From IMG/VR virus record IMGVR_UViG_3300044618_002782, positions 64,001-128,000 of that record: 64,000 nt of DNA; one strand, 5' to 3'. Made by a program: the position numbers and the translations under genes. The stretch comes from a virus. The notes beneath the pieces are model-generated. The model was not told the origin of the DNA, did no database searches, and saw nothing but the letters and a program-made list of their open reading frames with translations. Shown piece by piece: positions 10,363 to 36,710 of this stretch (position 1 is the stretch's first letter; each line of letters starts with the position of its first letter).

Positions 10363-11379
10363 ATGAGTAATCTATTTCGAAAAGTAGCAGTTTGCACCGA
10401 CATACACTTTGGTCTCAAGAGCAACAGTCTACTGCACAATCAAGACTGCGAACAATTCATCGATTGGTTTATTGCCACTGCTCGAGCAAACGGTTGCGAA
10501 ACTGGCATGTTTCTGGGCGACTGGCATCACCATCGAGCCAGTATCAATCTGCAGACCCTGAACTTCAGCTTGCGAGCTTTAGAAAAGCTGTCGGCTGCAT
10601 TCGATCAATTTTATTTTATCCCGGGCAATCACGATCTCTACTACCGAGATCGGCGTGACATACACGGTGCCGAATGGGCTAGACACTTGCCCAATATACA
10701 AATTGTCAACGACTGGTTTCAATCGGGAGATGTTGTAATTGCTCCGTGGTTAGTGGGCGACGATTACAAGCGTATACCAAAATTATCATCCAAATATGTG
10801 TTTGGGCACTTTGAGTTGCCGCACTTCAAGATGAATGCCATGGTGGAAATGCCCGATCACGGCGAAGTCAAGGTTGACAGCTTCAGCGGCATTGAGTCTG
10901 TGTTCAGTGGACATTTTCATCTTCGCCAGCAAAAGAAAAACATCAACTATATCGGTAACTGTTTTCCCCACAACTTTGCCGACGCCGGCGATGATGCACG
11001 TGGCATGATGGTGCTGGACTGGGGTTCGGAGCCGGTTTATCATGCTTGGCCTGGACAACCGTTATATCGAGTGTACGGCTTGAGTCAGGTGATTGATAAT
11101 GCAGACAATCTGTTATCACCTGGCATGCATGTGCGTGTTCAACTGGACATTGAGATCAGTTACGAAGAAGCTAATTTTATCAAGGAAACATTTGTCAAGG
11201 ACTACCATCTGAGAGAAATGGCCCTGATACCCAGCAAGAGTGCTGCTGTTGACACCGACATGGCTCCAGGCGAGGTCAAATTTGAAAGCGTGGACCAAAT
11301 TGTTACAGATCAGATCACTGCCATCGAAAGTGAGTTCTATGATCCTAAACTACTACTAAAAATATATCAAAACTTATGA
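10363..11379 (+). CDS. 47: gp47-like recombination endonuclease, Mre11/SbcD subunit
   Basis: This is the metallophosphoesterase subunit of the gp46-gp47 complex, which resects DNA ends for recombination-dependent replication. Motifs are in order: DIH at 13-15, GDWHH at 52-56, GNHD at 88-91, a histidine at 149 (FGHFE) and GHFH at 183-186. These are the metal ligands of the Mre11 family. Length (338 aa) matches T4 gp47. Unlike in T4, the gp46 gene does not follow directly; a radical-SAM gene starts in the ATGA overlap at its end. A palindrome-covered promoter precedes it. Confidence 0.93.
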   Translation: MSNLFRKVAVCTDIHFGLKSNSLLHNQDCEQFIDWFIATARANGCETGMFLGDWHHHRASINLQTLNFSLRALEKLSAAFDQFYFIPGNHDLYYRDRRDIHGAEWARHLPNIQIVNDWFQSGDVVIAPWLVGDDYKRIPKLSSKYVFGHFELPHFKMNAMVEMPDHGEVKVDSFSGIESVFSGHFHLRQQKKNINYIGNCFPHNFADAGDDARGMMVLDWGSEPVYHAWPGQPLYRVYGLSQVIDNADNLLSPGMHVRVQLDIEISYEEANFIKETFVKDYHLREMALIPSKSAAVDTDMAPGEVKFESVDQIVTDQITAIESEFYDPKLLLKIYQNL

Positions 11380-12600: not shown

Positions 12601-14364
12601 ATGATCAAAATTAAAAATTTAACTGTTAAGAATTTTATGAGTGTAGGTAATGCTACACAAGGCGTTAACTTTGATCGGCGCGATCTTACTCTGGTGTTAG
12701 GTGAAAATCTAGATCTTGGTGGCGACGGTAGTAGAAACGGCACCGGCAAGACCACAATCATCAATGCTTTAAGTTATGCCTTGTATGGCACTGCCCTTAG
12801 TAACATTCGCAAAGACAACTTAGTCAACAAGACCAACGGCAAGAACATGCTGGTCAGTTTGGACTTTGCAGTCAGAGGCCAGGAGTATCGAATCGAACGC
12901 GGTCGTAAACCCAATGTATTGAAGTTCTATGTGGATCATAAAGAGCAAGCGATCACCGATAACTCACAGGGCGACAGTCGAGAAACACAAGATGCTATCG
13001 AACACACACTGGGTCTTAGCCACGACATGTTCAAGCACATCCTGGCTCTCAACACTTATACAGAACCGTTTCTCAGTTTAAAAGCCAACGAACAACGTAC
13101 TCTAATTGAGCAACTGCTGGGCATTACCTTGTTAAGCGAACGTGCTGATCGTATCAAGGAACTAAACAAAGCCACCAAGGACGGAATCCAGCAAGAAGAA
13201 TTTCGTATACGTGCTGTACAAGAAGCCAACAAGCGCATCGAAGAACAGATCGAAAGCTTGTACAAGCGGCAGCGTATGTGGACTGCTAAACGCAACGAAG
13301 ATGTTGAAAAACTGAACTTGGGCATTTCTAGTTTAGAGCACATCGACATTGACGCCGAAGTTGCAGCACACCGCGATCTAGAACAATTTCATGCCAAGAA
13401 AAAATCTATCGATGAACACTCTCGCTGGATCAGAAGTATACAAAGCGACGATGCCAAGTTGGAAAAGTTGGTTGCCAAACTCAAAGCAGAGATTGCTGCG
13501 CTAGATGCCCATCGTTGCTATGCGTGTGGACAAGACATTCACGACCACAAGCAAGACGAAATTCGCAACAGCAAGCAGGCTTCGTTGCAAGAAACTGCCT
13601 TGCAATTGCTGGCCAATAATACACAACAGATGGAGCACGAAAACGAACTGGAAGATCTTGGTGAACTAGGAACAGCACCACGTGTGTTTTATGACACATT
13701 GGAAGATGCACTCAACCATCGCAACAGCTTGGAAAGTTTGAAAAAAGAACTGGCCACTAGAAGTCAAGATTCAGATCCCTATGCCGAACAGATCCAAGAC
13801 ATGCAGCAACAGGCCCTGCAGGAAGTCAGCTACGATCACATGAACGACTTGACAAGGCTGCAAGAACATCAAGAGTTCCTGCTCAAATTATTGACCAGCA
13901 AGGATTCTTTTATACGTAAAAAAATCATTGAACAAAATCTCAGTTATCTCAACTCAAGACTCACACACTATCTGGATCGCATCGGCTTGCCGCATACAGT
14001 GGTATTTCAAAACGATCTTACAGTCAGCATCGAAGAGCTGGGCAGAGAACTGGATTTTGATAATCTCAGCCGAGGCGAACGCAATCGCCTGATCTTGAGC
14101 ATGAGCTGGGCATTCAGAGATGTGTTTGAAAGTCTATATCAACCTATCAACTTGTTGTTTATTGACGAAATGATCGACAACGGACTAGACACACAAGGTG
14201 TCGAAAACAGTTTAGGCTTGTTAAAACAAATGAGCAGAGAACGCCACAAGAGTATTTGGCTAGTCAGTCACAGAGACGAATTGGCTGGACGTGTGGAGAA
14301 TATTTTAAAAGTCATTAAAGAAAATGGATTTACCAGTTACAACACCGATATCGATGTTGCGTGA
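12601..14364 (+). CDS. 46: gp46-like recombination endonuclease, Rad50/SbcC subunit
   Basis: The ATPase partner of gp47. Walker A lies at about 43-52 (GSRNGTGKTT), the zinc-hook motif CYACGQ at about 305-310 in the middle of two long coiled-coil arms, the ABC signature NLSRGERNRL near 488 and Walker B LLFIDEMIDNGLD near 518. The 587-aa length fits T4 gp46 (560 aa). The gene is separated from gp47 by a radical-SAM gene and its 3' end overlaps the second radical-SAM gene, so the nuclease and the enzymes are transcribed together. Confidence 0.94.
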   Translation: MIKIKNLTVKNFMSVGNATQGVNFDRRDLTLVLGENLDLGGDGSRNGTGKTTIINALSYALYGTALSNIRKDNLVNKTNGKNMLVSLDFAVRGQEYRIERGRKPNVLKFYVDHKEQAITDNSQGDSRETQDAIEHTLGLSHDMFKHILALNTYTEPFLSLKANEQRTLIEQLLGITLLSERADRIKELNKATKDGIQQEEFRIRAVQEANKRIEEQIESLYKRQRMWTAKRNEDVEKLNLGISSLEHIDIDAEVAAHRDLEQFHAKKKSIDEHSRWIRSIQSDDAKLEKLVAKLKAEIAALDAHRCYACGQDIHDHKQDEIRNSKQASLQETALQLLANNTQQMEHENELEDLGELGTAPRVFYDTLEDALNHRNSLESLKKELATRSQDSDPYAEQIQDMQQQALQEVSYDHMNDLTRLQEHQEFLLKLLTSKDSFIRKKIIEQNLSYLNSRLTHYLDRIGLPHTVVFQNDLTVSIEELGRELDFDNLSRGERNRLILSMSWAFRDVFESLYQPINLLFIDEMIDNGLDTQGVENSLGLLKQMSRERHKSIWLVSHRDELAGRVENILKVIKENGFTSYNTDIDVA

Positions 14365-15217
14365 CATAAGAGTCTTGCATGTAGAGCCAACAGATGTTTG
14401 TCAAGCATCGTGCCCTTTGTGCAGTCGTGTTACTGACCCGGCGTTTGATGCTAGTGATCAACGTCATTTAACTGTAGAACAATTATCTACTGCGATCGAT
14501 CCTGCTGTCTTGTTGAATCTCGACAAGATGTTTACATGTGGTAACTACGGAGATCCTGCTGCAGGACAACACACACTGGAGTTGTATCGTTACCTACGTT
14601 CTATCAATCCTGCCGTTACTCTGGGCATGAACACCAATGGCGGTCTTCGCAATCGAGATTGGTGGCAAGAATTGGCCGTCATACTCAACCAATCGCGTGA
14701 CTATGTTGTGTTCAGCATCGACGGATTAGCCGATACTAATCACATTTACCGTCGTGGCGTTGTCTGGGACAAAGTTGTGGAAAATGCACAGACATTCATC
14801 GACGCCGGAGGTTCTGCGCATTGGGATATGTTGGTATATCAGCACAATCAACATCAAGTAGATCAAGCACAAAAATTGGCCAAGGAAATGGGATTCAGTT
14901 GGTTTCGTGCCAAAATATCCAAAAGACCGTTGGCTAACGGATTAGCACTGCCAGATCAATGGCAATCAGTCGACCAGTTATCTGGAACTATAAAGTGTCA
15001 TGCTCTAACAGAACGCAGCATTTATATAGATGCCAGAGGAGTAGTTAATCCTTGTTGCTGGTTAGGCAATACAAAAATACACACGGAATTAGATTTTAAT
15101 GACATACAAAAATCGTGGCAATCAGTGCCTCATCCAGTGTGTCAATCTGCATGTTCTAGTAGGAACAACTCAACAAACTTTTCTAATCAATGGCAAAAGG
15201 AAGTGCAACTATGCTAG
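14354..15217 (+). CDS. Second radical SAM protein (SPASM-like C-terminus)
   Basis: The cluster motif VCQASCPLC (C16, C20, C23) stands near the N-terminus after HVEPTD. A GNYGDP motif about 50 residues later is the SAM-binding loop, and FSIDGL marks a later strand of the barrel. The C-terminal cysteines (KCHAL, NPCCW, VCQSAC) look like a SPASM/twitch auxiliary-cluster domain. Two starts are possible: ATG 14324, 41 nt inside gp46, or ATG 14354, 11 nt inside gp46; I chose 14354 because the protein then begins MLRDIRVLHVEPT, right at the first barrel strand. Neither has a clear ribosome site, so it probably depends on gp46 translation. Substrate unknown. Confidence 0.85.
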   Translation: MLRDIRVLHVEPTDVCQASCPLCSRVTDPAFDASDQRHLTVEQLSTAIDPAVLLNLDKMFTCGNYGDPAAGQHTLELYRYLRSINPAVTLGMNTNGGLRNRDWWQELAVILNQSRDYVVFSIDGLADTNHIYRRGVVWDKVVENAQTFIDAGGSAHWDMLVYQHNQHQVDQAQKLAKEMGFSWFRAKISKRPLANGLALPDQWQSVDQLSGTIKCHALTERSIYIDARGVVNPCCWLGNTKIHTELDFNDIQKSWQSVPHPVCQSACSSRNNSTNFSNQWQKEVQLC

Positions 15218-16239
15218 CATGGGATCACTGGCATATTGAGGCCAGTAGTATTTGTGCATTGAAATGTCCGCGATGTCCCAGAGCAGAAGCAGCAGAATCT
15301 TTGTTGAATCAACAGTTATCATTGGAATTCTTCAAAACACAAATTGGCAGTGAAACTATAAAACAAATTCGGAAAATAACATTTTGCGGTAATGACGGCG
15401 ATCCTGTATACTGTAAAGACTTTGTAGATATATGCCAGTGGATTAAAGAAATTAATCCTGCTATGAACTTAGTTATTGTAACTAACGGAAGTTACAAATC
15501 CGCAGAATGGTGGACTAAGTTAGCTGGTGTGTTAAATGAGCGTGACGAGATTAACTGGAGTATCGATGGTTGGGATCAACTCAGTAACGAAAAGTATCGA
15601 ATTAATTCTGATTGGCTCAGTATCGAGCAAGGCATAAAGACTTTCTTTGCTCACAACTGTAGCACTTATCGAACTTGGGCTTCTATAGCATTTAGATTCA
15701 ATCAGAATCAAATTCTTCATCAACAGCAGGTTGCCGGTGATCTTGGATTTGATTTGTATCAGCTGACAAAAAGCACTAAGTTCGGCAGTAAATACCCAGT
15801 TGCCTATGGCAGCAATGATTTGCTGGAACCCACTGATGCTTCCTTGGTAGCAGCAGGACACAGATTTGAACGTCAATTAATATCCTTGAGCAGCAAAATA
15901 CGTCCTGGAAAAGAACTAAAAGTATTATTTTTACAGAGAGCAACACAATTACAACAGGCAGCACAGTTTTCAGGCATTTGTTTGATAGGAAATAAAGGAG
16001 TATTTTTAAACAGTCGCGGCGAGTTTTTTCCTTGCTGCTGGACTGCTAACAGATACGAACATAACAGCAACTGGTTACAACAAGCAAAAGAAAAATTCAA
16101 TCTCAATACAAAAACATTTTCTGAAATTATCAATGACTCTTTTTGGACTACAGAATTTTTAAAATTTGACAGCATGGAGTGTACTACTAAATGCACAGCA
16201 TCACGTTTATCTGACTTGGATCACACAACCGAGTGGTAA
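15211..16239 (+). CDS. Third radical SAM protein (SPASM-like C-terminus)
   Basis: A paralogue of the preceding enzyme: ICALKCPRC (C15, C19, C22), then CGNDGDP and WSIDGW in the same order. The C-terminal half holds CLIGNKGVFLNSRGEFFPCC and ECTTKC, a SPASM-like cysteine set. An upstream in-frame ATG at 15190 exists, but AAGGA lies 9 nt before the ATG at 15211, which also overlaps the previous stop by a few bases; 15211 is the better start (342 aa). The shared architecture suggests that the second and third enzymes arose by duplication and work together or on related substrates. Substrate unknown. Confidence 0.86.
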   Translation: MLAWDHWHIEASSICALKCPRCPRAEAAESLLNQQLSLEFFKTQIGSETIKQIRKITFCGNDGDPVYCKDFVDICQWIKEINPAMNLVIVTNGSYKSAEWWTKLAGVLNERDEINWSIDGWDQLSNEKYRINSDWLSIEQGIKTFFAHNCSTYRTWASIAFRFNQNQILHQQQVAGDLGFDLYQLTKSTKFGSKYPVAYGSNDLLEPTDASLVAAGHRFERQLISLSSKIRPGKELKVLFLQRATQLQQAAQFSGICLIGNKGVFLNSRGEFFPCCWTANRYEHNSNWLQQAKEKFNLNTKTFSEIINDSFWTTEFLKFDSMECTTKCTASRLSDLDHTTEW

Positions 16240-16277
16240 TTTTATTTGGACAATAGATGTATTGCATAACTATACGC

Positions 16278-16706
16278 ATGACATGGTACCACAATGGACA
16301 AGAAGTAGTCGAACTGCCCGAGGATTGCGTTGGATTTGTTTATCTTATTACCAATGTTGTTACCGGGCGCATGTATGTGGGGAAAAAATTAGCAAAGTTT
16401 TCAAAAACAACTTATAAAACTGTAAAACTCAAGAATGGCAACAAGAAGCGTAAAAAAATTCGAAGTAAAATAGATTCTGACTGGCAACAATACTACGGCA
16501 GCTCCCCAAATCTCACAGAAGATATCACACAGCAAGGCACAGACAATTTCCGACGCGAAATATTATACTACTGTCGATCACGATCCGAATGCTCGTACAT
16601 AGAAGCCAGAGAACAGTTCTCCAGGCGGGTACTGGAATCAGATGACTACTACAATGGTCACATTCAAGTGCGTGTGCATGGATCACACATAAAAAACAAA
16701 CTTTAA
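16278..16706 (+). CDS. GIY-YIG-like nuclease-family protein
   Basis: A 142-aa protein whose first half reads VGFVYLITNVVTGRMYVGKK, the GIY-YIG core with FVY and YVG in the key positions. It continues with a basic stretch (KNGNKKRKKIRSKIDSDWQQ), YYGSS, and an FRREILYYCRSRSECSYIEA segment. This gene family is common in T4-like phages of aquatic bacteria and differs from the homing endonucleases elsewhere in the window: it has no NUMOD repeats. I chose ATG 16278 over 16257 because family members start just before the W-Y-N-G motif. Role unproven: a DNA-processing enzyme is likely. Confidence 0.72.
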   Translation: MTWYHNGQEVVELPEDCVGFVYLITNVVTGRMYVGKKLAKFSKTTYKTVKLKNGNKKRKKIRSKIDSDWQQYYGSSPNLTEDITQQGTDNFRREILYYCRSRSECSYIEAREQFSRRVLESDDYYNGHIQVRVHGSHIKNKL

Positions 16707-16729
16707 CAGGCAACGTACGGCAGTAACGA

Positions 16730-17115
16730 CTAGCACCGGTCTACATCGGGTGCCCTAGACCTGGACGCGAGTCGCAGGGATGGAAGTCTTCTCGCTGCAA
16801 GAAGCACTCAATCACTATCCTTAACAGGACGACGATCGCTTTGTAAGACCTGCGATTTGATTGTTTGAAGATGAAAACAGGCAAAAAGAGGGGAGAAAAA
16901 CCCCGGGTTTGTGCGCACGACTGCGTGTGTGGCACAGACTACCGTTGTATATTAAGACGGAGCGAACAGGTACCGGACAACCGCCTGTGCGATGTAGAAG
17001 TTTTACATCATAGTTCTAACGCTAGTGTGGCTGGGCTACTCAGATGAGGTACCAGTTTTTTCTTAACCCTTTGGTGGGTTAAGTGTGGCCAGTTAATCTA
17101 GATGAGATACTAGCA
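16730..17115 (+). ncRNA. Candidate structured noncoding RNA
   Basis: The 490 nt between 16706 and 17199 hold no convincing gene but a chain of compact stem-loops: 16733-16753 (GCACC/GGTGC), 16767-16795 (GCGAG/CTCGC), 16835-16856 (ATCGC/GCGAT), 16890-16904 (GGGG/CCCC), 16913-16930 (7 bp), 16966-16988 (ACAGG/CCTGT plus inner CGG/CCG), 16991-17009 (GATGTA/TACATC) and 17062-17083 (CTTAACCC/GGGTTAAG). The 16913 stem needs two G-U pairs that exist only in plus-strand RNA, which favours that strand. Base composition is more GC-rich than the flanks. It is not a tRNA, and I do not recognise a known class. A near-repeat (17042-17055 and 17100-17113) sits at its 3' end. Confidence 0.5.
17042..17113 (+). 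repeat. Pair of 14-nt near-repeats
   Basis: AGATGAGGTACCAG at 17042 and AGATGAGATACTAG at 17100 differ at two positions, both transitions, and flank the strong CTTAACCC hairpin. They may be paired elements of the candidate RNA. Confidence 0.5.
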
Positions 17116-17149: not shown

Positions 17150-17199
17150 AAAAACATGTTACGAGCGAAAGCGAAGTAACAGATGTTCGCAGAACATCT
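17150..17199 (-). terminator. Tandem hairpin terminator for the minus-strand operon
   Basis: Read on the minus strand, an 8-bp stem with a 3-nt loop (17181-17199, AGATGTTC/GAACATCT) is followed by a second stem (17158-17180, GTTAC/GTAAC) and then a T-rich tract (ATGTTTTTATTTT). It directly follows the stop codon of the gene ending at 17199. Confidence 0.6.
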
Positions 17200-17534
17200 T
17201 ATAATGTATCAGGCCAATCACGAAACAGTGCATGTTGAATATCACCTGCAACAAACTGATTGAATGATTGATGTTTCTGTTCCAATTCGCCTTCCAATGG
17301 AGCTACCCGAGCAAAAGCAGCATCCATCTGTGCCATGTTAACAAACTCCATCATGATGTGCCATTCGGGCATGTCAGCGATTGATCTGAATCCCATCTTG
17401 CATCGGGTTATTCTAAACGATTCCATTTTCTTTTCGTCGACTAGGTGCTGCAAGAATCTGCGCATATTGGTTACCCAATCTATGTCTGTAATGTCGCCTG
17501 CTTTGTTTGCCCAAATATGATATATGTCTGCCAT
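17199..17534 (-). CDS. Small conserved protein, DUF6614-like
   Basis: A 111-aa protein that opens IYHIWANKAGDITDIDWVTN and contains FRITRCKMGFRSI, PEWHIMMEFVNMAQMDAAFA and a final FRDWPD. The order of these blocks resembles DUF6614, a small family with a ferredoxin-like (dimeric alpha/beta barrel) look found in cyanobacteria and proteobacteria; this is recognition from memory, not a search. The role is unknown. It is the last gene of a three-gene minus-strand run and ends in a hairpin terminator. A ribosome site (AGAGGAAAAC) precedes its ATG. Confidence 0.62.
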   Translation of the reverse strand: MADIYHIWANKAGDITDIDWVTNMRRFLQHLVDEKKMESFRITRCKMGFRSIADMPEWHIMMEFVNMAQMDAAFARVAPLEGELEQKHQSFNQFVAGDIQHALFRDWPDTL

Positions 17535-36030: not shown

Positions 36031-36085
36031 AACGCAAATGGTTGCGTTTTATGCGGTACCCCACCGCGTAAGGCCTAGAACGCCT
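36031..36085 (+). promoter_or_regulatory. Three consecutive hairpins in the 36108 leader
   Basis: 36031-36048 (AACGCAA-ATGG-TTGCGTT), 36051-36069 (ATGCGGT/ACCGCGT, loop ACCCC) and 36071-36085 (AGGC/GCCT). The first is followed by a short T-run and could also end transcription from the previous gene; the ribosome site AAAGGAAAAG stays unpaired after the last stem. Confidence 0.6.
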
Positions 36086-36107
36086 AACTTTTAAAGGAAA
36101 AGAAAAA

Positions 36108-36710
36108 ATGGGTCGCCCACTAAAAATTAAAAAGAGTACAACCAAAGACATTGGTTTCAATGCTTGGGATCAGCTGACTAATCCAGTATATCCTGCTACA
36201 TTCAACACAGACCAGTATCTTGGTGTGGTTGGTGGTGAAGGCAACGGCGGTGGTGTTGCTACTGCAGCATATCCTGTTGTCAAGTGCAGAGTTTTCATCA
36301 CAGGACAAAGTGAAGAAGATGGTTGGATCGTTCGCCAAAAAGGCACAAGAAAGTATCTGGTTGAAGGTGCCAGTTCAGGTGCACAAGGCGTTTGCGTTTT
36401 GGCCAACGAAGCACAAGGCGTAATAACAGAAGGCAACATGAACATCAGCTTTGCCTTAGACGCAGACAGTTCCGAAGTTCTGATCAGCAAACTCACAAAC
36501 AAGTATGCATATGACTTTACCGGCGGTGAAGTTGGTGGTGCAGCCGCTGGTGGCTTTGCGCAGAACCTGGTACAGCAGAACATTCGTTATGCAGCCAACT
36601 TCTTCACAGACGAAGGCACAGAAATCAAGTCCGGTACTACAGGACAAGACAATACTGCTACACAGCAGAACCTGTTGAGCCTGGTAATTGTAGAAAACTA
36701 CACTTCGTAA
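36108..36710 (+). CDS. Conserved structural protein of unknown function (200 aa)
   Basis: It starts GRPLKIKKSTTKDIGFNAWD, an opening I recognise from structural proteins of T4-like phages of aquatic bacteria, continues with a beta-rich region (AAYPVVKCRVFITGQSEEDG, RKYLVEGASSGAQGVCVLAN) and ends in DNTATQQNLLSLVIVENYTS. No enzymatic motif is visible. The strong leader (late promoter, three hairpins, AAAGGA site) and following perfect terminator suggest a very abundant product, perhaps a capsid decoration or fibre protein (inference). Confidence 0.7.
   Translation: MGRPLKIKKSTTKDIGFNAWDQLTNPVYPATFNTDQYLGVVGGEGNGGGVATAAYPVVKCRVFITGQSEEDGWIVRQKGTRKYLVEGASSGAQGVCVLANEAQGVITEGNMNISFALDADSSEVLISKLTNKYAYDFTGGEVGGAAAGGFAQNLVQQNIRYAANFFTDEGTEIKSGTTGQDNTATQQNLLSLVIVENYTS

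Follow-up and report, generated by a model that had tools for sequence, protein, structure and literature searches.

What does this phage encode in a stretch of its genome that holds no gene? The stretch lies in the 64-kb window that we analysed, part of a 160.6-kb virus record, and is bounded 5′ by a SegE-like GIY-YIG gene (16257-16706, + strand; Pfam PF19835, E 1.4e-32) and 3′ by a convergent ORF (17199-17534, − strand). An earlier note on this DNA had proposed a new structured RNA at 16730-17115. The folding energy of the stretch (z of −1.84 on the + strand and −2.66 on the − strand) is weak evidence alone, so stem-loops drawn in a single sequence prove little. Pattern scans of viral contigs returned 56 loci by the 5′ domain of the candidate, at least 120 by a 22-nt middle motif and at least 120 by a looser 5′ pattern, the last of these including a few chance matches unrelated to the RNA. 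Conservation in the alignment ran to ~17110 and was followed by two further conserved hairpins reaching ~17198, and mutual information among 92 representatives, calculated with no structure supplied, placed helices across the entire span. Across 60 diverse phage copies we found 71 pairs in 14 helices, 4 of them pseudoknots, with 93.7% standard pairs in a structure derived from the same alignments that score it. Double changes were seen at 52 of these pairs (629 cells, against a shuffled mean of 166), counts that overstate the independent events because the sequences are related. None of 500 shuffles was as good on any measure, and pairing was 36-42% when partners were moved by 1-3 columns. We also found no conserved reading frame across the RNA in the 60 relatives: the median length of the longest run without a stop, over all frames, was 72.5 codons versus 62 after shuffling, and 1003 of 1128 indel runs were not multiples of 3. 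ARAGORN detected no tRNA and no tmRNA in the window.

Together, these results bear out the proposal of a structured RNA in a gene-free stretch, for which the note had looked to covarying pairs in relatives and to the lack of a conserved protein frame. They also agree with the note in that it saw no fit to a tRNA and recognised no tmRNA, RNase P or group I intron core; none of these was matched by ARAGORN or Rfam. We regard the identity of the RNA and its architecture as close to certain. The proposed boundaries need widening: a pseudoknot strand at 16720-16723 lies upstream of the start given in the note, and the tail hairpins extend to ~17198. The whole conserved body occupies approximately 16715-17110 on the + strand, which gives a size of ~390 nt, or ~490 nt with the tail hairpins.

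The novelty of this RNA is partial, because 16728-16866 on the + strand is already represented in Rfam by RF01718, Polynucleobacter-1 (cmscan 115.6 bits, far above the gathering threshold of 37, over the full model, 1-141). The 2010 description of this family, from Burkholderiales and fresh water, judged it a probable RNA with a probable cis-regulatory role, and its entry in the discovery table reads 'y' for cis-regulation and '?' for switch (PMC2864571). The model stops at 141 positions, whereas conservation and covariation in the phage RNA continue to ~17110, and the middle and 3′ domains, two pseudoknots, a pair of matched repeats and the tail all lie outside it. On these alignments, RF01718 accounts for just the 5′ third of a larger structured RNA that has strong support. 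The model also takes no account of the locus in T4-like phages or of the copies in mobile elements described below. The Rfam search suggested in the note returned nothing else at threshold within the stretch, and only one other family, RF02980, exceeded its threshold in the window. This freshwater-2 RNA (36032-36110, + strand; 63 bits versus a gathering threshold of 49.9) is directly ahead of an ORF at 36108-36710 and gives this phage two RNA elements of freshwater origin.

The RNA has three domains and a tail, all on the + strand, and the helices recovered by mutual information include some outside the Rfam model. At the 5′ end, pseudoknot A joins 16720-16723 to 16795-16798 (4 of 4 pairs double-changed, 83% of cells paired, and also detected by mutual information), with its 5′ strand outside the Rfam model. 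It is followed at 16728-16753 by a hairpin, 16733-16737/16749-16753, with a pseudoknot to its loop, 16728-16730/16739-16741 (97.9% and 91.7% of cells paired, respectively, with double changes), and the 5′ domain is closed by a helix at 16809-16814/16858-16863 (96.7% paired, with double changes). Within the 5′ domain, positions 16818 and 16830 co-vary without forming a standard pair (TATCC..GGACG versus TACCC..GGATG). The middle domain has a long hairpin, 16907-16918/16927-16939, in which all 12 pairs are double-changed. Pseudoknot B pairs 16923-16926 with 17019-17022 (98.3% paired, 4 of 4 pairs double-changed), pseudoknot C pairs 16944-16948 with 16977-16981 (99.3% paired, with GTTGT/ACAAC replaced by GTCAT/ATGAC), and a helix forms between 16960-16963 and 17013-17016 (96.3% paired, 4 of 4 pairs double-changed). 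The invariance of the 22-nt middle motif is partly built in, because this motif served as a search pattern; copies retrieved by the 5′ pattern vary it with compensating changes such as GTTGT/ACAAC to GTTGA/TCAAC, in pseudoknot C, and AGG/CCT to TGG/CCA. One 65-kb viral contig (L112) carries a lone middle motif, AGGTACCGGACAACCGCCTGTG, with flanks unlike the RNA. In the 3′ domain a strong hairpin at 17062-17083 is 95.4% paired. The two tail hairpins, 17157-17181 and 17182-17198, have the same layout in phage and bacterial copies and may perhaps form the 3′ end of the transcript.

Near the RNA, the window holds T4-type genes, one for a gp46-type, SbcC-like exonuclease subunit and one for a T4-type baseplate protein, along with ORFs at 10363 and 9343 that we take to be gp47 and gp55, respectively. 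The interval from gp46 to the SegE-like gene, whose gene content differs in relatives, here holds two adjoining ORFs at 14324-16239 (+ strand), of which the second matches a radical-SAM PHROG. In a set of 167 loci, one of them bacterial, a SegE-like gene of a single cluster was found 5′ of the RNA in 143 and directly adjacent to it in 134, with gp46-type genes further upstream. Genes downstream of the RNA varied and were often convergent; the commonest cluster at the first downstream place occurred in 35 of the 167 loci, in the opposite orientation. The RNA thus occupies a fixed phage locus and does not serve any single gene as its leader. A riboswitch or other cis-regulatory leader controlling the gene that follows would fit the listing as probably cis-regulatory (PMC2864571) and the co-oriented downstream gene of some phage loci. 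We consider it very unlikely, given the lack of any single downstream gene, the convergent orientation of the next gene in the window, and the tail hairpins, which close the RNA; the cis-regulatory proposal of 2010 is thus unsupported by the phage locus. The SegE-like gene immediately upstream in most phage loci could likewise suggest a ribozyme or intron remnant tied to that endonuclease. To this we give almost no credence, as the RNA locus is fixed, the bacterial copies in the loci examined are not beside a GIY-YIG gene, and there is no intron, RNase P or tmRNA match. Moreover, the GIY-YIG family is widespread in the phage collection (396 records), and a nucleotide search of the phage and plasmid collections with the RNA returned no match.

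The 14-nt near-repeats reported in the note, AGATGAGGTACCAG at 17042-17055 and AGATGAGATACTAG at 17100-17113, do lie on either side of the hairpin at 17062-17083, and the alignments revealed a constraint between them. Each belongs to a unit with the layout GTG(A/G)C, spacer, A(CTC or TCT), 7-base core, R. In the window, unit 1 (17038-17049, + strand) reads ACTC, core AGATGAG (17042-17048), G, and unit 2 (17096-17107, + strand) reads ATCT, core AGATGAG (17100-17106), A. The cores vary among phages, with 11 different ones seen, and yet the two within an RNA were identical in 158 of 159 distinct phage 3′ domains, compared with the ~16% matching expected if cores were assigned randomly. This tally leaves out L067, L130 and L174, which are chance matches outside the RNA; the true cores of L234 match, and the one real phage mismatch is L250. 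No mixed combinations occurred at 17042/17100, 17043/17101, 17046/17104 or 17048/17106 among 92 copies. The flanks differ in a fixed manner (ACTC versus ATCT, and mostly G versus A), and the persistence of these differences makes gene conversion across the entire unit an unconvincing explanation. Kinship inflates the counts, but one inherited accident is also unlikely, because many different cores each occur in both repeats.

Mutual information identified no third segment within the RNA complementary to the cores, and flanking DNA was not enriched for cores or their complements. Placement of the cores in local hairpin loops was unsupported (2.92 versus 2.65 shuffled for the first repeat and 3.08 versus 3.18 for the second). 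We judge, with moderate confidence, that the two units are likeliest to be equivalent docking sites for one partner. Another reading is an RNA homo-oligomer or cage in which the matched cores make contacts between copies. GOLLD, ROOL and OLE each self-assemble (PMC12286853), the setting of a large pseudoknotted phage RNA is similar, and paired identical sites would fit a symmetric assembly. The cores, however, are identical and not mutually complementary, so core-to-core pairing fails to explain the constraint, and neither GOLLD nor ROOL was matched, which leaves the oligomer rather unlikely. The likeness to GOLLD and ROOL raised in the note therefore holds only in general terms: these RNAs are also large, pseudoknotted, phage-linked and of unknown role (PMC12286853), whereas neither reached the Rfam threshold in the window, the RNA described here is smaller, and the neighbouring tRNAs that are frequent but not obligatory for them are absent from this 64-kb window.

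We found RF01718 in 20 of 186 genomes of one bacterial genus, that of the MAG in locus L064 and presumably Polynucleobacter, with 24 matches above the cut-off. In 398 genomes sampled from the family of this genus and 398 sampled from its phylum, the only matches were in genomes already found in the genus. The bacterial copies hold the full RNA, including the middle domain, both repeats and the tail, and in the genomes examined they lie in integrated elements of ~7-11 kb. These elements carry a DUF6641 gene pointing away from the RNA, variable cargo, unknown proteins, a short tyrosine recombinase, usually with a long one as well, and an ATPase related to phage clamp loaders. Loci L205, L206, L207, L208, L211 and L213 share DUF6641, two unknown proteins (one with a PYYWWW motif) for which Pfam returned no family, two tyrosine recombinases and the clamp-loader-like ATPase. 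DUF6641 was considered as the RNA partner and set aside, its predicted single-sequence fold being too poor (pLDDT 45). Several elements are bounded by a repeated palindrome of the GTCCTTTTAAAGGAC or GTCGTTTAAAACGAC type, and one is flanked by 62 bp duplicated from a tRNA-Met end; two genomes have two elements each, with their RNAs 18-21 kb apart. Like phage satellites, several are thus small integrated elements with a recombinase and boundary repeats, and a satellite role is plausible. No capsid or packaging genes were recognised in the elements. Searches for element proteins in phages close to the RNA, or in the phage of the window, gave nothing beyond short weak matches, and a scan of viral contigs for the element-type RNA by its middle motif found none. 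Cores were identical in 12 of 15 integrated elements (L194 and L200 are bacterial copies whose cores differ, AACAAAA versus TCCAAAA). Element cores are of the AGCGAAA, ATCAAAA and AACAAAA types and phage cores are mostly xGATRAx, a difference that sits poorly with simple mimicry of a phage site.

The sequence ahead of the bacterial copies points to how they may be expressed. The T4-type late promoter is TATAAATA. In the phage of the window, no 7-mers are more enriched upstream of ORFs than ATAAATA (15 versus 1.1 expected) and the TAAATAC and TAAATAA that overlap it, as expected for such promoters. We found (A/C)TAAATA, in some cases as TATAAATA, directly ahead of the RNA in 24 listed bacterial copies, one of which is below the family cut-off, whereas the motif was present in the 185 nt 5′ of the RNA in 0 of 143 phage copies. 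Its position was constant in the bacterial copies examined while other upstream sequence varied, and it also stands at conserved positions ahead of two genes of the elements, that of the small recombinase and a 260-aa gene. Late transcription in T4 makes use of the sliding clamp, a protein loaded onto DNA by the clamp loader; for this reason, the clamp-loader-like ATPase would suit dependence on late transcription by a helper. It is possible, but in our view doubtful, that these are integrative elements of the usual kind, which acquired a phage RNA but have no relation to a helper, the motif being there by chance or as ancestral baggage. The lack of recognised capsid or packaging genes is compatible with this, as is a motif that is short, A+T rich and found about once per 10 kb of strand in background sequence. 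A motif fixed in place amid varying sequence and recurring ahead of two other element genes argues against it, as does an ATPase that fits T4-type replication and late transcription.

The explanation that we prefer, and to which we assign an even chance of being right, is a trans-acting two-site RNA of freshwater T4-like phages that also occurs in satellite-like elements, with a partner docked twice and the element using late transcription of its helper. Its structure and distribution are those established by the alignments and genome scans above; the partner, the helper dependence and the function would be as follows. The two repeat units would be docking sites, most likely for a dimeric protein or for one nucleic-acid target bound twice, and the remainder of the RNA a scaffold keeping them at a set spacing. 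The phage would produce the RNA during infection; the element would produce its own version once a T4-like helper provides late transcription, and this RNA would draw the partner to the element. An extension that seems to us rather improbable is a reprogrammable two-site scaffold, in which the matched cores set the partner; satellites would have copied and re-set this RNA, and would switch it on with the late promoter of the helper so as to divert its machinery. A resemblance exists to ICP1 and PLE, where a prominent non-coding RNA is made during infection by the phage and another by its satellite; those are different transcripts, however, of ~800 bp in ICP1 and between inverted repeats in PLE (PMC7567579), whereas the RNAs of phages and elements described here are homologous to each other.

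With these results, the orphan 141-nt motif of 2010 grows into a complete RNA whose fold is defined, whose home is in phages and which is tied to satellite-like elements, and the matching of its two short sites provides a handle on function. A homologous structured RNA in phage and integrated element, preceded in the element by a promoter motif of helper type, would represent a testable case of conflict or cooperation between T4-like phages and a parasite at the level of RNA.
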